The notes under the pieces were generated by a model. It had not been told where the DNA came from, searched no databases, and was given only the letters and a program-made list of their open reading frames with translations. The position numbers and the translations under genes were made by a program. This document shows positions 2,923 through 20,450 of a DNA stretch of 20,450 bases, one piece after another. This stretch comes from a virus. The first letter of the stretch is position 1, and the number at the start of each line of letters is the position of its first letter. The stretch is from IMG/VR virus record IMGVR_UViG_3300006802_000778, positions 1 through 20,450 of that record. One strand, written 5' to 3'.

Positions 2923-3287
2923 TGTCTAGAGGAAATCGTCAAGCAGAAGACCAGTTCTACGAAAAGCGGCGAGCCGAAACGCGCAACTATACGCTAGACT
3001 GGTCGCGGGAACTGGATACGGGTGAAGCGTTGAGCGGAAACCCCACCGTCACCGTTGTAAAAATGACGGGCCAGACCGCCACAGATGCCTCAAGCGAACT
3101 AAACATCAGCAACCAAACTACATCTGGCACTAAGTCCGTGTGGACGTTTGGCGCAGCAACGACTGGTGAACAAGACGAGGACGATGTTTACTACGTTATC
3201 GTAAAACAATCAACAGACGCATCACATACATTTGAGTCTATTCACCGGCTATATATTTATGAGTTCGGTGATAGTACGGCACCATGA
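2922..3287 (+). CDS. Small Ig-like structural protein, Gp77-like fibre/tail adaptor candidate
   Basis: 121 aa, starting in a TAATG overlap with the fibre gene. The N-terminal 25 residues are charged and followed by RNYTLDWSREL, then beta-rich sequence (PTVTVVKM, ELNISNQTT, VYYVIVKQ) ending IHRLYIYEF. The pattern of an early YxxDW motif followed by an Ig/BACON-like sandwich is typical of small phage proteins next to tail fibres, annotated in some phages as Gp77-like or fibre-tail adaptor proteins. Role inferred from pattern and position: it probably links the fibre to the tail or decorates the virion. No catalytic motif is visible. Confidence 0.5.
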   Translation: MSRGNRQAEDQFYEKRRAETRNYTLDWSRELDTGEALSGNPTVTVVKMTGQTATDASSELNISNQTTSGTKSVWTFGAATTGEQDEDDVYYVIVKQSTDASHTFESIHRLYIYEFGDSTAP

Positions 3288-3637
3288 TTACAGATAAACG
3301 CCTAGCGGACTTACAAAGTGCCTTGACTAAGAGCGGTAGCACTCACGACATTGATGATGTCTTGACCAATGTTATGAGCGGTCACGCCCAACTCTGGGAA
3401 ACCGACACCGCAACAGTCGTTACACAGATTGTACAGCATCCAAACTATCGCAGTTTTAATGTTTGGTTGGCTGGCGGCGATCTCACGGGTGTCCTAAGCC
3501 TTCTAGAGGAAGGCGAGGAATACGCAAAAGCCAACGGCTGTTCGACCATGGAGGTCACAGGCCGACGGGGCTGGAAGCGAATCCTCGCGCCTCACGGTTT
3601 CCACGAAGAAGCTGTCGTGCTTCACAAGGAGTTATAA
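3284..3637 (+). CDS. GNAT-like acyltransferase of the phage structural module
   Basis: 117 aa. The ATG overlaps the stop of the preceding gene (ATGATTACA at 3284, TGA at 3285-3287). The order is typical of short phage GNAT-like proteins: N-terminal helix MITDKRLADLQSAL, LWETDTATVVTQIVQHP, the strand RSFNVWLAGGDL, a helix LLEEGEEYAKANGC, then TMEVTGRRGWKRILAPHGF and the final strand AVVLHKEL. The GRRGW turn and the G-F-x-E-E-A-V-V end match the acetyl-CoA-binding part of the fold. Such proteins recur in podovirus genomes between fibre and internal-protein genes. Whether it is catalytically active and what it modifies are unknown. The stop overlaps the next ATG (TAATG). Confidence 0.6.
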   Translation: MITDKRLADLQSALTKSGSTHDIDDVLTNVMSGHAQLWETDTATVVTQIVQHPNYRSFNVWLAGGDLTGVLSLLEEGEEYAKANGCSTMEVTGRRGWKRILAPHGFHEEAVVLHKEL

Positions 3638-4380: not shown

Positions 4381-5624
4381 TGAGCCCTAAGTATCCATTC
4401 CAAGTTTCTAGGATGGTTGGTGGCGCTCTTCCACGGATCGGTCAGGCCGTACTGCAACAGCAGCCTCAGCCCCAGATCCAGCAGCCCCAGTCGATGGGGG
4501 GGCGCATCCAAGGTATTCTTAGCACCCTACTGGGGGCACAGAATAGGTCAGAACTTAGCAAGGGTCTGCTTGACTTTGGCTCCCGCATGATGGCTGCGAG
4601 TGCCCCCGGTGGTGCTGGCAGCTTTCTGGGCGCTCTGGGTCAGTCGCTTCCCGCCACCCGTCAGACGCTTGAGGGGCAGCGCGATCAACAGATGATGCTG
4701 GACGCGCTCCCGGAGGAGTTCAGGAAGTTCGGACTCGCTGGCGCACAGATGTATATGAATATGCTGGGTACCCAAACACCTATGGGCGGTAGCGTTTATG
4801 GTACTGGCGGGTGGTCTACCCCATCCCCACTTCCGCCGGAGTCGCCGGATTACGTTGATCCGGGTAGGTTTTTCCAGCAGTCAATGGCAACGCATGACAT
4901 TCCGACCATGGAGACATACTTCGGTCTGGACCCAGAAACACAGGCCAGTATATCGAACTTTGCGGTGTTGTTGGAGCAGCGCATGGAGTCCGCAAGGAAT
5001 GCGGGTACTAATCCAAGACTTGATGCTATTACAAAGCTCGACGCCGACAAGCTTGGCGAACTCCGCTCCGCTGCGCAGGGCGCACAAAATCAGGAGCCAA
5101 TGCTAGAGGCAATGGAGTATTACGCATCCAACCCGGAGATTTACCAAGGTCAGTTTGCGGATTTCAAGCTTTCTGCGGTTAAGCTGGGTCAGGCGCTTGG
5201 TCTGCCGGTTGACGAGAACACGGGACAGGCGGAAGCGTTCAGGCAACTTAGTTCTGAGCTTGCGCTCTACTACCGGAACCCAGAAAGCGGCTTTGGTATG
5301 CCCGGTTCGCTGTCTCTGGGAGAACTGGCGTTCCTAGAGGCAATGGTTCCGGGTATCAAAAACACTCAGGCCGGTAACCTTGCCATGGTCCGGTTCTTAC
5401 GTGCGGTTAATCGCAGAAAGGTGCTCTTGGCTCAGGCGGCACAACGGCACTTTGTAAACGGCGGCTCACTTAACGATACTGGGTGGTATGAAGTTGCGCG
5501 ACAGATCTCCAGAGAAAACCCAATAATTGATGGGGTTAATTTCGACGAATGGGAGTCTGGTCGTGGAAAAGCACCAGATTGGGCAGAGGCGGCGGTGAAC
5601 GACACCTCTTCAATTCGCGAATAA
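4377..5624 (+). CDS. Putative internal virion protein (415 aa)
   Basis: Starts in an ATGATGA overlap with the previous stop. Residues 25-45 are Gln/Pro-rich (QQQPQPQIQQPQ). They are followed by a helix with LLDFGSRMMAASAPG and FLGALGQSLPATRQTLEGQ, then a mostly helical, soluble body. The FGxxMMAAS-x-PG...FLGALGQ element recurs in the second protein of podovirus internal-protein modules. There is no signal peptide, nuclease or lytic-transglycosylase motif that I can see. It lies between two proteins of the same module and is translationally coupled to both, so a role inside the capsid or in genome ejection is inferred from context. The stop overlaps the next ATG (TAATG). Confidence 0.45.
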   Translation: MMSPKYPFQVSRMVGGALPRIGQAVLQQQPQPQIQQPQSMGGRIQGILSTLLGAQNRSELSKGLLDFGSRMMAASAPGGAGSFLGALGQSLPATRQTLEGQRDQQMMLDALPEEFRKFGLAGAQMYMNMLGTQTPMGGSVYGTGGWSTPSPLPPESPDYVDPGRFFQQSMATHDIPTMETYFGLDPETQASISNFAVLLEQRMESARNAGTNPRLDAITKLDADKLGELRSAAQGAQNQEPMLEAMEYYASNPEIYQGQFADFKLSAVKLGQALGLPVDENTGQAEAFRQLSSELALYYRNPESGFGMPGSLSLGELAFLEAMVPGIKNTQAGNLAMVRFLRAVNRRKVLLAQAAQRHFVNGGSLNDTGWYEVARQISRENPIIDGVNFDEWESGRGKAPDWAEAAVNDTSSIRE

Positions 5625-7447
5625 TGGACCCCGAACTTCAAAAACAGCGCGGTATTGTAAGCACAATGAAGGCACAGGGGCGCAGCTACGACGCCATTGT
5701 GCAGTATCTACGCACACAGGGGTACGAGTCCGTGGATGCGTGGAATGAGGCGGTTGACAGGGCCGACGCAGCGGTGGCACAACCTGAGCGTCAGCCCCCA
5801 CAGCGCCAACCGGGCATGACTGGAATGGCGGCGTTCGGCGCGGACCCGAACTACTTCAATGCGCTTTCCGGTGCAACGAGGGACGTTGTTCGTGAGATGG
5901 CCCAGCCCGTCACGCTTGGATACGCAGACGAGTTGGAAGCAAGGGCAAGGGGTATTCCGTATGAGCAGATTGCCGCAGAACGTGCCGCTGTCCCGACGCC
6001 AGTCCGGGTAGCAGCGCAAGCGCCCGGAATGGTTTTGGCGGGCTTGGGAAGTGGTGCGCTTACACGGGCTGCTATTCCCGCTGCCGCTTCTGGACTGCGA
6101 AGCACCGCTACCGCGCTGGGTTTGGCTGGTGCGGAGGGGTACCTTTACGGCACGGGCGCGGCAGATCCCGGTCAGCGGATGGAGGGTGGCAAGACCGGCG
6201 GGTTGACGGCTTTGGCCTTTGGTACACCGTTGGTTGGCCTTGGGCACCTTGGACAATACATCGGTAAGCAACGGGATATCGCAAAGGGTCTCATTGACGC
6301 CCCGGATTTTCTTGCCAACGAAGTTGGTATTACGCCAACGATGTTTGCGCCAGAGGCGGGGATGACCCTTGCGGAGACTATGGGTCCTCGTTTTGGCGGC
6401 TCGCTTCTCAGATCGGCTACGTCGGGCATTGATAATCCTCAACGGCTTAAAGATGTTGAGAGCTTTCTTGTAAGCCGCCAGAGAGGCGTCCCAGCTAGGC
6501 TGGGGCAAGCTGCGGACGTCCTGCTACCGGGTACTAGTGCCGGGAACAGGACTGGCCCTGCTCAGGCAATGTACAAAACGCTGGATCCGCAGGAAGTGCC
6601 GGAAAACGTACTGGACGCCCTCATGGGCGTGGAGAGGTTGACCGAAACCTCTGGGATCGGCACCGGCATGGCGTCAAGGCATGGCGCAAAGCTTGGCGGC
6701 TATCAGCTACCAAACAGGGCGGTAGAGATTGGCCGTGATACCGGCGGCGTTTGGCAGCAGCCACGGTCTGCGACATGGGAACAGGCCATGGAGACGCAAA
6801 GAGGTATTAAAGAGATGACGCCACCATTGCCGCTGCAAAAGGCCAACACGGCTCTTCGTGAGGCAATGATTGAGGCGTCTCCGGTATATGCAGAAGCGAA
6901 CGAACTGTACCGCATTGGCAAGACCGTGGAACTTGTTGACAATGCGATCAATAAGGGCAACGCCGGTAAGGTGATTTCTGCGCTTCGTGCGCCACAGATT
7001 AGTCAAAGGATTGCGGCTGACTTTGGTGAGGAAGCTGCGGCTGGCTTTGCAAAGCTCTTGAATGACGGAGAGACAATCTACGATGTGTCCAAGCGCGGAC
7101 TACAGGGCGTAGAAACTGCCGGTGGTGCCATGACTGGTCGCGTGTACGACCAGATGAAGGGACTGTTCACGCAGGGGCTGACGGCAGTTGCGTACGCGCT
7201 CAACAAGATGTTTGGTGCGTCTGCGCGGACGATGATTCAGGCCAACCTCAGCGGTAGTGCTGGTGGGCGACGGCTGGCCAATGAGTTGATTGACATCCTC
7301 AACATGGAGTCTACTGCTGCTCAAGGTCTTCTAAGAGAGGCCAGCGAAATACCCGGAAAGATTGCAAAGGCCAACGCATTCAGGTCTGGCCTCTTGGCTA
7401 GTGTTGGTGGGCAACTTGGATCTAAGGGACTTCTTGGAGGGCGGTAA
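5624..7447 (+). CDS. Large putative internal virion / ejection protein (607 aa)
   Basis: The start is the ATG at 5624 in a TAATG overlap with the previous stop; an in-frame extension from 5549 lies inside the previous gene and is rejected. The N-terminus (MDPELQKQRGIVSTMKAQG) is helical. Residues about 75-110 read like VREMAQPVTLGYADELEAR, with PYEQIAAERAA shortly after. Residues about 130-185 are Ala/Gly-rich and mildly hydrophobic (MVLAGLGSGALTRAAIPAAA, GLAGAEGYLYGTGAA). The order G-x-x-DEhEA ... PGxxLA-G-G ... A-x-G-x-L-Y-G-x-G is common to large podovirus proteins believed to form the ejected internal core. The C-terminal third is helical and ends glycine-rich (GGQLGSKGLLGGR). No enzymatic domain is recognised. 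Confidence 0.5.
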   Translation: MDPELQKQRGIVSTMKAQGRSYDAIVQYLRTQGYESVDAWNEAVDRADAAVAQPERQPPQRQPGMTGMAAFGADPNYFNALSGATRDVVREMAQPVTLGYADELEARARGIPYEQIAAERAAVPTPVRVAAQAPGMVLAGLGSGALTRAAIPAAASGLRSTATALGLAGAEGYLYGTGAADPGQRMEGGKTGGLTALAFGTPLVGLGHLGQYIGKQRDIAKGLIDAPDFLANEVGITPTMFAPEAGMTLAETMGPRFGGSLLRSATSGIDNPQRLKDVESFLVSRQRGVPARLGQAADVLLPGTSAGNRTGPAQAMYKTLDPQEVPENVLDALMGVERLTETSGIGTGMASRHGAKLGGYQLPNRAVEIGRDTGGVWQQPRSATWEQAMETQRGIKEMTPPLPLQKANTALREAMIEASPVYAEANELYRIGKTVELVDNAINKGNAGKVISALRAPQISQRIAADFGEEAAAGFAKLLNDGETIYDVSKRGLQGVETAGGAMTGRVYDQMKGLFTQGLTAVAYALNKMFGASARTMIQANLSGSAGGRRLANELIDILNMESTAAQGLLREASEIPGKIAKANAFRSGLLASVGGQLGSKGLLGGR

Positions 7448-10865: not shown

Positions 10866-11495
10866 TTAGAACCCCCCGAGTTGTGAGATTGTGTAGCCGA
10901 TTGCTACCCCACCTACGGCGTACAGGGCTTTCTCCAAGAACCCCGTCTGCGCCCTCTCCACGGCTGCTGCTGCTGCCACCCTTGCCGACAGCGCCTGTTC
11001 AAGCGCGGAGATCTGCTGGTCCTTAGCTAGGATCTGGACTGCCTGTGCGGTGATGATGTCGTCCTGACTTTCTATCACCTGTATAAACTGATCGATCTTC
11101 TGCTCGTTTAACAGCCGTTCCATCTCAATGTCCACCCGCAGAGAGTCTACGACAGATTCGTAGCCTTCTGGGAGGGTATTAGCGAGTAGGTCAACGGTGG
11201 CGTCCGTGGCGTCCATTACAGCCGCTTCCCGTGCTTCGATCTCAGCCACCACCTCTTCGGCTTGCATCACAATGAAATCGGCTTCGGCGGCGATGGAGTC
11301 TGCCCTCTCGTCCGCTTCTCTAGCCGCCGCCCTGAAGGCATCTGCGACGGATGTCAATGAGTCCGCTCGTTGGATGTACACCCTAGCTTCCCCTTCGGCT
11401 CGTAGCCTTGCGTCACGCTGGTGAATGTATAGCAGCCCCCCGCTGATGGCAAGCAGCCACCCAACTAGCTGCCAGTTACGGATTAGGATTGACAT
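10866..11495 (-). CDS. Membrane-anchored long coiled-coil protein, spanin-like
   Basis: 209 aa, ATG at 11495 inside the end of the glycosyltransferase gene (20-nt overlap), with GGAG about 6 nt upstream. Residues 8-24 (WQLVGWLLAISGGLLYI) form an N-terminal membrane anchor. Residues about 28-185 are Ala/Glu/Asp/Gln-rich heptads typical of a long coiled coil (EADERADSIAAEADF, ISALEQALSARVAAA). The C-terminus is a second hydrophobic glycine-containing segment (ALYAVGGVAIGYTISQLGGF). An N-terminal anchor plus a periplasmic coiled coil matches i-spanins (Rz), and two membrane ends recall unimolecular spanins. No lipobox is seen and no separate outer spanin was identified. Lysis is the likely role, not proven. 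Confidence 0.5.
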   Translation of the reverse strand: MSILIRNWQLVGWLLAISGGLLYIHQRDARLRAEGEARVYIQRADSLTSVADAFRAAAREADERADSIAAEADFIVMQAEEVVAEIEAREAAVMDATDATVDLLANTLPEGYESVVDSLRVDIEMERLLNEQKIDQFIQVIESQDDIITAQAVQILAKDQQISALEQALSARVAAAAAVERAQTGFLEKALYAVGGVAIGYTISQLGGF

Positions 11496-12186
11496 GGTAC
11501 TCCGGGGTGAAGGGGAGCATTGCGGTGTTCGGTGCCTTGTCCATGATTGTCAGGGCGTGGCCCCATGCGGCTGGCGACAGCGCACTATCCTGATACAGCA
11601 AGGCGTACTTCGCGAACTGCTGCTTGCGCCCCTCTGGCGTGGCGTAGGCTAGATGCAACAGAGAGTAGCGGTCCTCCATCACCTGAAGCGGCTGTATCTT
11701 CGCGCTGTCTGGGATGTGCCCTGAGTGCCACGCCTTTTTGGGGAGCTTGTGGCTGTTGGGTCCCGGATTGCGTACAGCCCATATACGTGGCCTTGTGTGT
11801 GCGTCCCACCACACATCGTCCCGGTACTCCCACTCACCCCACATATCGTAATACTTGAATGCAAAGGAGTTTGAGTTCTCCTCAAACGCTTCCTTCGGGT
11901 TAGATGCCGGATACATATCGGCATCCAACCACAGCAGGATGTCGTGCTTGGATTGCGTTGCGATGTCCCAGAGAAACTGGCGGATGTCGTGTTCCGCACC
12001 CATCATGGGCGCTGAGTGGTTGTCGTACACCCGGCACTTCTGTGCAATCATGTACTCCCGTGAGCCGTCCGTCGAACGGTCATCCACAACAAGGATGTCG
12101 TCCGCAAACTCTTGCCAGATTGGAACGACTTGTTGCAGGTATCTGCCCATTTCGTTTCGACAGAGCGTACAAACCAGAATGCTCAT
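11476..12186 (-). CDS. GT-A glycosyltransferase, family 2-like
   Basis: 236 aa, ATG at 12186, 3 nt after the upstream stop. The N-terminus has the family 2 nucleotide-sugar fold: ILVCTLCRNEMGRYL, then DDILVVDDRSTDGSREYM (residues 29-46), and the metal-binding D88-A-D90 in LLWLDADMYP. Residues 110-180 include WGEWEYRDDVWWDAHTRPR and KKAWHSGHIP. The acceptor is unknown; phage enzymes of this kind modify phage DNA, virion proteins or host surface glycans. Upstream is a small 3-TM protein, downstream a spanin-like protein, so a surface-glycan role is possible. There are no TM segments of its own. Confidence 0.75.
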   Translation of the reverse strand: MSILVCTLCRNEMGRYLQQVVPIWQEFADDILVVDDRSTDGSREYMIAQKCRVYDNHSAPMMGAEHDIRQFLWDIATQSKHDILLWLDADMYPASNPKEAFEENSNSFAFKYYDMWGEWEYRDDVWWDAHTRPRIWAVRNPGPNSHKLPKKAWHSGHIPDSAKIQPLQVMEDRYSLLHLAYATPEGRKQQFAKYALLYQDSALSPAAWGHALTIMDKAPNTAMLPFTPEYHVNPNP

Positions 12187-12677: not shown

Positions 12678-12903
12678 TGATCGATGGGTATTTAAGTTCG
12701 CTGATCTTGATCACGCTGCGCTTTGGAATGGTTGTCACGGATCGGTTGAATCGGTGTCCATCCGACACAAGCTCCTCTCCGGCCACCGTAATGTAGTCCT
12801 TGGTGGACTCCAGCACGAACCCTACCGTGCAAGCGTTGTAAACTGGTGGGCTTTCATCGTCTAGGCTGAAGGATGCGTCCTCCCAGAACACCATGACCAG
12901 CAT
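12670..12903 (-). CDS. Small beta-rich phage protein (77 aa)
   Basis: The start chosen is the ATG at 12903, 1 nt after the upstream TAA and preceded by GAGGTGG; a TTG five codons upstream is a weaker option. The pattern WEDASFSLDD ... CTVGFVLESTKDYITVAGE ... TTIPKRSVIKISEL matches a very common family of short phage beta-barrel proteins of unknown function (W-x-DA ... hGhhh...hhhA ... IPxxxI..I..L). It is probably a cytoplasmic SH3/Lsm-like fold. The stop TAG overlaps the next gene by 8 nt. Confidence 0.6.
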   Translation of the reverse strand: MLVMVFWEDASFSLDDESPPVYNACTVGFVLESTKDYITVAGEELVSDGHRFNRSVTTIPKRSVIKISELKYPSINA

Positions 12904-12904
12904 C

Positions 12905-13477
12905 TTAATCCACCTCAAGTTTGTGCCGCTTTGAGTACGGGTAGAACCACCCCAACCACGTTGCTGCGTCTACACTTGCGGACAGGTACGTCACAATTTT
13001 GCGGTTGATTGCGTCCTTGTCAACGTTTTTCTTCGACTCTGCTTCCGCCATCAACACCCTGAAACGGTCCACGTTGCCCTTGGTTAGCGCCTTTTTTGCG
13101 GACGATTCTAAGAACTTCACGGTCCTGTCTGGGTCACCAAAATGGTCAATGGCGATCTGTTCCGGCGTCCTACCATTGAAGCCACCCTTGTGGCGCTCTA
13201 GGTGAATGCAGACATCCTTGTGAGCCCTGACCATCTCCCACAGAATTTCAACGTTCAGGCCGCGCTTTTCCGCTGCAAACTCCACCGGACACCCGTCAGG
13301 CTTCTTCGCCAGCATCTCATCGTGGTGCTTCCGCAGACAACTGGACGGGCGCAGCTGGCGTGACTTCTCGTCCACGCACTTGTCGCACCGCTTGTTGTCA
13401 CCCGTAAACTTGGCCTTCGGTGCCGCCTCGTAACAGCGGCTACAGGCTCTTACCTTCTTGGTGCCCTTGCGTGGCAT
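12905..13477 (-). CDS. Zinc-finger protein of unknown function (190 aa)
   Basis: ATG at 13477 overlaps the upstream TAA (TAATG) with GGAGGGG upstream. The basic N-terminus carries a C4 knuckle (C12, C15, C31, C34: ACSRCYEAAP and RCDKCVDEKSR) plus C47. The remainder is helical, with residues 80-160 rich in charged helices (EMVRAHKDVCIHLERH, RVLMAEAESKKNVD) and a C-terminal YLSASVDAATWLGWFYPY. The zinc knuckle followed by helices suggests DNA or RNA binding. Its place just downstream of the helicase gene fits a replication accessory role, but no homology is recognised. Confidence 0.55.
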   Translation of the reverse strand: MPRKGTKKVRACSRCYEAAPKAKFTGDNKRCDKCVDEKSRQLRPSSCLRKHHDEMLAKKPDGCPVEFAAEKRGLNVEILWEMVRAHKDVCIHLERHKGGFNGRTPEQIAIDHFGDPDRTVKFLESSAKKALTKGNVDRFRVLMAEAESKKNVDKDAINRKIVTYLSASVDAATWLGWFYPYSKRHKLEVD

Positions 13478-19142: not shown

Positions 19143-19171
19143 ATTCTACAGGCACCCTCTCCCGGTGTCAA
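19143..19171 (-). promoter_or_regulatory. Leftward sigma70-type promoter of the long operon
   Basis: On the - strand TTGACA (19171-19166), a 17-bp spacer and TAGAAT (19148-19143): perfect -35 and 5 of 6 for -10. Transcription would begin near 19136, giving a 5' UTR of about 45 nt before the ATG at 19090. This is the only strong promoter seen for the leftward genes. The 28-nt operator-like module ends 31 nt upstream of the -35. Confidence 0.7.
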
Positions 19172-19202: not shown

Positions 19203-19230
19203 AACATTGTTACAGTTTAGGCACACCTAA
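19203..19230 (-). promoter_or_regulatory. Operator-like module, copy A
   Basis: Read on the - strand it begins TTAGGTGTGCCTAAAC and continues TGTAACAATGTT. It shares 23 of 28 positions with copy B at 20309-20336. Its palindromic half has 7-bp arms, GTTTAGG / CCTAAAC on the + strand (19215-19232), spacer CACA. The palindrome ends 12 nt before the + strand ATG at 19245, next to its SD. It could therefore control the divergent + gene as well as the leftward promoter. Confidence 0.6.
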
Positions 19231-19244
19231 ACAACGGAGGTCGC

Positions 19245-19724
19245 ATGGCTGGGGGCAGAAAAATCTACGAGGCACGTATCGCACAGCTAGATGACATGGG
19301 GGTAGAGGAGGTATTCCGGCTGTATCTTGAGCATGGCACTGTCAAGGCGCTTGTGTCGTCGCTGTGGGAGCCAGCGCACGAAGGTCAGCAAGTTGGTGTG
19401 TCTGCGCTGTACGGTTGGCTGGATCGCAACCCGGCTGCGAAAGATGCGTGGCGAAGGCTGCGGAAGATGCGCGGGGATATGGATGCAGACGAGGCTGTGC
19501 ATATCGCAATGAATGCGACGCAGGAAGACTGGCAAGCCAAGAAGCTACAGGTGGAGACCCTAAAATGGAGAGCAGGGGTCAATAATCGGGAGGACTACGG
19601 CACCGGCGTGGATGCCGTCGTCTCGACGCTGGGTCAGGCGATTCTCCGGGCGATCACGGCAGCGGAGCAGCAGGAGCGTCTACCGGTACCCGCAACTGAC
19701 GCAGAATACGAGATTGAGGAATAG
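19245..19724 (+). CDS. Terminase small subunit-like DNA-binding protein (159 aa)
   Basis: ATG at 19245 with GGAGG upstream. The N-terminus has an HTH-like region (DDMGVEEVFRLYLEHGTVKA, VSALYGWLDRNPAAKDAWRR). It is followed by the typical TerS helical block: MDADEAVHIAMNATQEDWQA, LQVETLKWRAGVNNREDYG. The acidic C-terminus (DAEYEIEE) follows an oligomerisation-type helix (AILRAITAAEQQERL). TerS proteins bind pac/cos DNA and hand it to the large terminase. No large terminase is in the window, so a dedicated regulator with the same fold cannot be excluded. The non-coding region immediately downstream could be its packaging target. Confidence 0.65.
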   Translation: MAGGRKIYEARIAQLDDMGVEEVFRLYLEHGTVKALVSSLWEPAHEGQQVGVSALYGWLDRNPAAKDAWRRLRKMRGDMDADEAVHIAMNATQEDWQAKKLQVETLKWRAGVNNREDYGTGVDAVVSTLGQAILRAITAAEQQERLPVPATDAEYEIEE

Positions 19725-19790
19725 GGGGGGGCGTTTGCACAGAGAATAGGTTCCGATTGCGCAGAGAACCGTGTGCGAGCGAACCCCCAG

Positions 19791-19836
19791 TTTCAGGGCA
19801 AAAAAAATCACCCCTTCGGAAGCTTCAGCCCTGAAA
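19791..19836. repeat. Inverted repeat after the TerS-like gene
   Basis: Perfect 9-bp arms TTTCAGGGC (19791-19799) and GCCCTGAAA (19828-19836) around a 28-nt interior that contains A8 and a short TTCGGAA turn. It lies 67 nt after the TerS stop. It could form a long stem that ends + strand transcription inefficiently, or a cruciform. Confidence 0.5.
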
Positions 19837-19848
19837 TGTTGCGTCTGC

Positions 19849-19870
19849 AATAGTTGACGCTGCAACTATT
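19849..19870 (+). terminator. Possible weak terminator hairpin
   Basis: Perfect 8-bp stem AATAGTTG (19849-19856) / CAACTATT (19863-19870) with a 6-nt loop, followed by a pyrimidine tract TTCTCTTC. The stem is AT-rich, so an intrinsic terminator after the TerS-like gene would be weak. A binding site for a protein is the alternative. Confidence 0.35.
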
Positions 19871-19903
19871 TTCTCTTCGCCCATCGCGCAGCATACACGC
19901 AGC

Positions 19904-20003
19904 ATCGCCCGGGCAACCCGAACAAAAACCGAAACCCGCCCCGCGCGGGTTCGCAGCGTATCAGCAGGGTGGATCGCGCGGGTAAACCGAACAAAACCCG
20001 AAA
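19904..20003. repeat. 31-bp direct repeat, two copies 69 bp apart (iteron-like)
   Basis: Copies at 19904-19934 and 19973-20003 agree at 27 of 31 positions; the shared core is CCGAACAAAA followed one base later by CCGAAA. A 7-bp hairpin (AACCCGC / GCGGGTT, 19933-19951) lies between them. Further CCGAA units occur to about 20070. The layout resembles iterons of initiator-dependent origins. Confidence 0.55.
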
Positions 20004-20023
20004 GGGGGGCGGGGCTTGACTGC

Positions 20024-20039
20024 GTTGCGCCGACGCAAC
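20024..20039. repeat. Short hairpin GTTGCG / CGCAAC
   Basis: Perfect 6-bp arms (20024-20029 and 20034-20039) with a 4-nt loop CCGA. One of several stems in the non-coding region. Confidence 0.4.
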
Positions 20040-20244
20040 ACCGAAGCATTTCCCGAAGGAAACCCGAAATAGCCCTAAAAAGCCCGTAAAGGGCACTAGG
20101 AAGCACGACAACTCCTTAGGGCCACCGCCATACGGGCTGGGTCATCCTCGCAAGTTCCCCTTATTTCATGCGGGTTCCGAGCGGTTTTCCACATAGGTGG
20201 CACAATCCCTGCTGGGGTTCGCCAATTTCGCAGCTTATGCGCAG

Positions 20245-20279
20245 CAATCCGGGGGGCTACCCCCACGGTATCGGGATTG
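20245..20279. repeat. Nested hairpin in the non-coding region
   Basis: Outer arms CAATCC (20245-20250) and GGATTG (20274-20279) enclose an inner GGGGG (20251-20255) / CCCCC (20260-20264) stem with loop GCTA. A two-step stem or cruciform, 30 bp left of operator module B. Confidence 0.4.
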
Positions 20280-20308
20280 GGGGGGAGTGTCCACGCAATG
20301 ATTTGGAA

Positions 20309-20336
20309 TTAGGTAAGCCTAAATTGTAACAGTATT
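20309..20336 (+). promoter_or_regulatory. Operator-like module, copy B
   Basis: Begins TTAGGTAAGCCTAAA and continues with TGTAACAGTATT; 23 of 28 positions match copy A. Here the 10-mer ATTGTAACAG is repeated (20323-20332 and 20334-20343) with an 11-bp period, so two protein units could bind side by side on one face of the helix. The TTGACA at 20371-20376 begins 34 nt after the module. Confidence 0.6.
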
Positions 20337-20370
20337 GTAACAGCGTGGGGCTTTCGGGGTTTATTCGGTA

Positions 20371-20397
20371 TTGACAAGAAAAAATTCACAATAATTT
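20371..20397 (+). promoter_or_regulatory. Rightward promoter candidate for the gene at 20435
   Basis: TTGACA (20371-20376) is a perfect -35. The -10 is unclear: AATAAT (20390-20395) is 5 of 6 but only 13 bp away, TAATTT (20392-20397) has 15-bp spacing but a poor match. The A/T-rich stretch between them and the operator module upstream favour a real, regulated promoter. Confidence 0.4.
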
Positions 20398-20434
20398 GGA
20401 GCACGTTCACCACACCTCTCGAAAGGAGACCCAA

Positions 20435-20450
20435 ATGAGCAACGCCACCC
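20435..20450 (+). CDS. Start of a + strand gene (3'-partial, first 5 codons)
   Basis: ATG at 20435 preceded by AAAGGAG (20422-20428) with a 6-nt gap, the best SD in the window. Only MSNAT is visible, so nothing can be said of function. It is the first gene after operator module B. Confidence 0.7.

Follow-up and report, generated by a model that had tools for sequence, protein, structure and literature searches.

A probable composite cis-acting control region where the transcription arms of an uncultivated phage genome diverge

Several described systems resemble the phage non-coding region analysed here. In the pac regions of SPP1 and SF6, direct repeats adjoin the gene of the terminase small subunit (TerS) and overlap promoters, as they did at our locus (PMC4737164). 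However, the SPP1/SF6 repeats span the beginning of TerS, whereas the repeats here followed TerS and recurred before TerL. It has also been reported that TerS of SF6/SPP1 hardly prefers the pac repeats (PMC4737164), which weakens a reading of our repeats as TerS sites. Isolated-record relatives of our TerL and portal proteins were all less than 60% identical. Among them was phage phiM5, with a related TerL (40% identity) and portal (in the 40-44% range); its terminal repeat of 357 bp immediately precedes TerL, in the place occupied here by a second CCGAA region. The phiM5 repeat is without CCGAA arrays, and our phage is known from contigs alone. In iteron origins, direct repeats spaced by roughly one helical turn occur together with an A+T-rich neighbour and with genes for an initiator and a helicase. 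All of these had counterparts in our phage, but the repeats were not conserved in place in a relative. Finally, Class I activator promoters (with CRP-like geometry) have a dyad box upstream of the -35 element and spacing steps of whole turns. The same arrangement was found here, although the box fitted no nameable regulator.

The window, i.e. the whole stretch of DNA that was analysed, was an entire virus contig of 20,450 bases (IMGVR_UViG_3300006802_000778). The region of interest comprised 710 bases (19725-20434), from the TerS stop codon (19724) to an ATG at 20435. The first-pass annotation had called these 710 bp non-coding, and both its coordinates and the contents it listed were correct: coding statistics ranged from -0.06 to -0.12 per codon over all frames, compared with +0.09 to +0.26 for the genes of the window, and the best internal ORF (19825-20106, minus strand) scored -0.01. 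A hidden gene was excluded by these codon statistics, despite a fair Shine-Dalgarno sequence before this minus-strand ORF. The neighbouring gene (19245-19724, plus strand, 159 aa), described earlier as TerS-like, encoded a real terminase small subunit (PF20901, E 4.6e-11; phrog_1482). Likewise, the initiator-like HTH protein (262 aa) and the DnaB-like helicase were indeed encoded in the window. A blastn search for homologues of the region in isolated phages or plasmids returned no match. Additionally, a glycosyltransferase-2-like gene with a weak Pfam match was seen in the leftward arm (11476-12186).

The final 127 bases of the window were an exact match to the initial 127 bases of another contig, G002 (IMGVR_UViG_3300025889_001988, 14,886 bp). 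Since an exact overlap of 127 nt is typical of assembly at k=127, G002 was taken as the neighbouring contig. The assembly break fell exactly at a promoter (window 20324-20450, the 127-bp overlap), which suggests coexisting strains in the sample that differ around this point. A search for strains with the same promoter but other upstream cassettes returned the adjoining contig only. The relative G001 (41,883 bp) had a 123-bp end overlap and was therefore closed at 41,760 bp. It was colinear with the window plus G002, and its transcription had a single divergence, at TerS, and a single convergence, near 29 kb. The cumulative GC skew of this closed genome had its minimum at the TerS start and its maximum at the convergence. 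GC skew had been proposed earlier as a check on an origin; the minimum did lie at this locus, yet transcription diverges there too, and since skew follows transcription it was uninformative on the origin. The earlier view that the genome was otherwise almost free of gaps was only partly right, because another gap, about 700 nt long, preceded TerL in the adjoining contig and the relatives. G001 also contained a 78-bp direct repeat (96%; 3541-3616 and 4476-4553) that flanked extra genes, while the window had one copy (12875-12943), as if a gene cassette had been gained or lost by recombination.

Conservation was assessed in G001, G003 and L004, which were about 84% identical to the window elsewhere. 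The initial 26 to 46 bases past TerS stayed alignable, and CAGAGAA boxes were kept. There were two such boxes in the window, 22 bp apart and directly after TerS (19733-19770, plus strand), and three copies of the GTTACACCAGAGAATCGG type in the relative. From about 19785 to 20300, the 84%-identical relative had unrelated sequence and all three direct CCGAA pairs (see below) were missing. Conservation in place of the iteron style was not observed, as the pairs were absent at the corresponding site of G001 and G003. The right end was conserved again, with TTAGGNNNNCCTAAAYTGTAAC followed by the promoter and the Shine-Dalgarno sequence. Since the ends were conserved and the middle was exchanged, we considered the region to be composite. 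Moreover, the middle CCGAA pairs were evidently not essential in that place because an 84%-identical relative did without them.

The first-pass annotation had missed that the right-hand 130 bases of the region were a promoter with a conserved upstream box, which the leftward promoter had as well. This upstream box, TTAGGNNNNCCTAAAYTGTAACA (TTAGGTAAGCCTAAATTGTAACA at 20309-20331, plus strand), was also present in G001, G003 and the unrelated phage contig L008. An exactly matching mirror partner, TTAGGTGTGCCTAAACTGTAACA, was located at 19208-19230 on the minus strand and was identical in G001 and G003. Thus, the window, G001 and G003 each had two copies of the box, which flanked TerS as mirror images and each faced a promoter; a reversed-pattern control gave 0 matches. 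The leftward promoter was strong and of the sigma-70 type (TTGACA-17-TAGAAT, 19143-19171, minus strand), with 11 of 12 consensus positions. Its counterpart in the relative was TTGACG-17-TAGAAT at the same distance from the box, the spacing from box to -35 (55 bp) being nearly constant between the window and the relative. The rightward promoter (20371-20397, plus strand) was sigma-70-like and combined TTGACA (20371-20376) with a -10-like TAATTT (20392-20397). The latter was poor, with a short spacer of 15 nt; at the matching position, the relative had TACCTT and L008 had TACACT. Downstream were the Shine-Dalgarno sequence GAAAGGAG and the ATG of the first rightward gene (20421-20450, plus strand), which continued on G002. 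The leader and first codons CCTCTCGAAAGGAGACCCAAATGAGCAACGCCACCC (window 20412-20450; L054:408-446) recurred almost unaltered where the next gene starts, and the ATGAGCAACGCCACC portion of this stretch was present a third time (L054 666-691).

The distance from the box to the -10 element was 82 on the left and 83 on the right in the window, 71 on the right in the relative and 61 in L008. These values differed in steps of 10 to 12, or about one helical turn, a phasing that was based on four distances only and on -10 hexamers picked by eye. The layout of an activator promoter, namely a conserved upstream site in helical phase, was found here at few sites and with a weak rightward -10. By its spacing, the box behaves as a candidate activator site, and the weakness of the rightward -10 would also fit activation. 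The box resembles the DtxR/IdeR iron box over the initial 14 bp of the latter but lacks its second half.

In L008, an unrelated 53.6-kb phage contig, the same TTAGG box stood before a good promoter. The surrounding 500-bp non-coding divergent region (6340-6872) had 25-bp direct repeats of its own. This box is suggestive only and may be a chance match, since by estimate the scan pattern predicts about one random match in such a collection. A scan of viral contigs with the pattern CCGAACAAAANCCGAAA gave 43 places, approximately the number estimated for chance, and no second copy was found in the unrelated contigs among them. A phage-encoded regulator common to L008 and the present phages was considered and rejected, as nothing beyond a methylase-like protein and a single weak match of 29 residues was common to them. 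The lack of a recognisable regulator gene common to these phages would fit a host-encoded activator.

Clustered direct repeats in the region exceeded chance. The 31-bp repeat with a 69-bp period that had been noticed earlier was confirmed (19904-19934 and 19973-20003, 27/31 identical): the best of 300 dinucleotide shuffles gave 22/31, and none reached 27/31. The earlier count of about seven CCGAA units also held, with exactly seven in the region compared with a shuffle mean of 1.1 (0/1000 shuffles reached seven). The most apt unit for this repeat was the CCGAA-N6-CCGAA pair, of which the window had four (three direct and one inverted) and the control 0; three direct pairs occurred in 0/2000 shuffles. 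The direct pairs were on the plus strand at 19918-19934, at 19987-20003 (69 bp after the first) and at 20053-20069 (66 bp after the second). The inverted fourth pair (20352-20368, minus strand) was located between the upstream box and the promoter. The Alphaproteobacterial LexA box is GTTC-N7-GTTC. As an identity for the CCGAA pairs it was ruled out, since their outer bases vary and their spacer is fixed. Interleaved with the pairs was a second repeat family, TTCGCAGCNTATNNGCAGCA, with three copies in the region (shuffle mean 0.02), at 19885-19904 (3 mismatches), 19950-19969 and 20227-20246, all on the plus strand.

Perfect inverted repeats (stem of at least 7, loop of at most 30) were moderately enriched: they numbered four, compared with a shuffle mean of 1.24, and 4 of 200 shuffles reached four. 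On the plus strand, the hairpins TTTCAGGGC/GCCCTGAAA and AATAGTTG/CAACTATT, then TTTTCTCTT, followed TerS (19791-19870), and these possibly form the end of the TerS transcript. Further along the same strand were AACCCGC-CCCGC-GCGGGTT (19933-19951), between pairs 1 and 2, where a hairpin between the copies of the direct repeat had been annotated, GTTGCG-CCGA-CGCAAC (20024-20039) and the branched inverted repeat GCCCTAA...TTAGGGC (20072-20122). The DnaA-box-like sequence mentioned in the first-pass annotation was present (TTTTCCACA, 20185-20193), but it was single. As the only TTWTNCACA match in the region, with none at this place in the relatives, it did not form a cluster.

The CCGAA pairs occurred once more on the adjoining contig. 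Just before TerL (G002 3041-3106), they formed an array in which 11-bp units, CCCGAAGAAAA, were repeated in tandem. An identical array was found on L053 and a decayed form before TerL in G001; no CCGAA pairs were seen elsewhere in these contigs. Moreover, 80 loci of the wider MCP (capsid) family had no further CCGAA.AAAA.CCGAA arrays and no TTAGG box. An uncommon unit at two places of one genome, both non-coding and both in the packaging module, points to a DNA-binding protein. Thus, the earlier preference for direct repeats as protein-bound DNA gained support from these paired sites of 11-bp pitch that recur upstream of TerL. In L003 (6200-6240) and L054 (3299-3340), a very strongly conserved block, AATTTTTAAAAATTAGAACGGTTTAAAAGTTGGCTTGGT, was located before TerL; it was not recognised as a promoter and is a candidate terminus or regulatory site. 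The 11-bp tandem unit CCCGAACAAAA, with a free base that was mostly C, was also present in three or more copies in unrelated genomes (L162:306-332; L165:4382-4408; L166:2972-2998; L167:2622-2648; L168:2500-2526; L169:4741-4767). These were a prophage between a tRNA and its integrase, Pedobacter, Flavobacterium, Blautia, a Clostridia MAG and an uncultured bin. Such arrays could be either tandem repeats of an ordinary sort or a protein site that these genomes share.

What the repeats do can be read in several ways. They may mark a packaging start (pac or terminus), at which TerS would bind the CCGAA pairs, the CAGAGAA boxes or both, with a cut by TerL nearby. We hold this reading tentatively, as possible and well short of even. 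Terminase genes adjoined both places (TerS ends at 19724, and the second array lies just before TerL on G002), the CAGAGAA boxes directly after TerS were kept in the relative, and TerL of phiM5 is preceded by the terminal repeat of that phage. Spacers before TerL were also seen in several relatives, e.g. 426 nt in L106 and L123 according to a crude gap finder. However, in SF6/SPP1 the repeats are a poor guide to where TerS makes contact (PMC4737164), and the two CCGAA regions were about 3 kb apart. Alternatively, the CCGAA pairs may be iterons of a replication origin, bound by the 262-aa HTH/DnaT-like initiator, with melting at the A+T-rich 20296-20410 and loading of the DnaB-like helicase. 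The 11-bp pitch, the two interleaved repeat families, the presence of genes for both proteins and the skew minimum at TerS in the closed relative are all in line with an origin, and a tandem-repeat search found no other iteron cluster in the window or the initiator gene. Nevertheless, we regard it as unlikely, if far from negligible: the relative was without pairs here and had only the decayed array before TerL, the DnaA-like box was single and non-conserved, the skew minimum coincided with divergent transcription, and the initiator gene was 4 kb away.

It is also conceivable, although rather doubtful, that a phage regulator uses the CCGAA pairs as its operators and that they take no part in DNA processing. 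The fourth pair lay between the box and the -35 element, and a small HTH_3 protein was encoded on the adjoining contig between both CCGAA regions. On the other hand, a distance of 300-450 bp, which is long for operators, separated the direct pairs from the promoter, and no recognisable TerL promoter was found beside the second array. A long structured phage RNA, which had been offered earlier as an option, was poorly supported and is very improbable. The inverted repeats were enriched, and the folding z after TerS was -4.1 in one 150-nt window, but -2.3 with another boundary and -1.9 for the counterpart in the relative. This locally strong folding suits hairpins that end the TerS transcript. 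No Rfam covariance model matched, even with E allowed up to 5, the folding z of the whole region was -0.8 to -1.6 with the other windows near background, and the repeats stood upstream of the rightward promoter. Additionally, the middle was not conserved in the relative, so that covariation had one sequence only as its basis.

The best explanation, which we favour somewhat beyond even, is a composite control region that acts in cis and lies at the divergence of the two transcription arms in a phage genome of about 40 kb; the activation and the protein identities within it are inferred from sequence. A host or phage DNA-binding protein would bind TTAGGNNNNCCTAAAYTGTAACA on the same helix face as RNA polymerase and switch on the rightward operon (packaging and head), while the mirror box upstream of TerS would switch on the leftward replication operon. 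The CAGAGAA boxes at the left end and the CCGAA-N6-CCGAA pairs in the middle would serve as repeated binding sites. The CCGAA pairs are probably candidate protein-bound DNA for packaging or replication and, being common to the array before TerL, would most likely load a phage DNA-processing protein. By their place, TerS (at a packaging start) would be somewhat favoured over the replication initiator for this role. A bolder version, in which a host activator common to unrelated phages drives both arms via TTAGGNNNNCCTAAAYTGTAACA and the exchangeable CCGAA cassette forms a two-site packaging/replication signal with the array before TerL, appears improbable.

As such, the region would be of an ordinary phage type, though some of its details are unusual. 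If the composite reading is right, it would provide a testable regulatory box and two candidate packaging/replication signals for a barely studied group of uncultivated phages. It would also show how the middle of a phage control region can be exchanged while the promoter and the terminase-side boxes stay in place.
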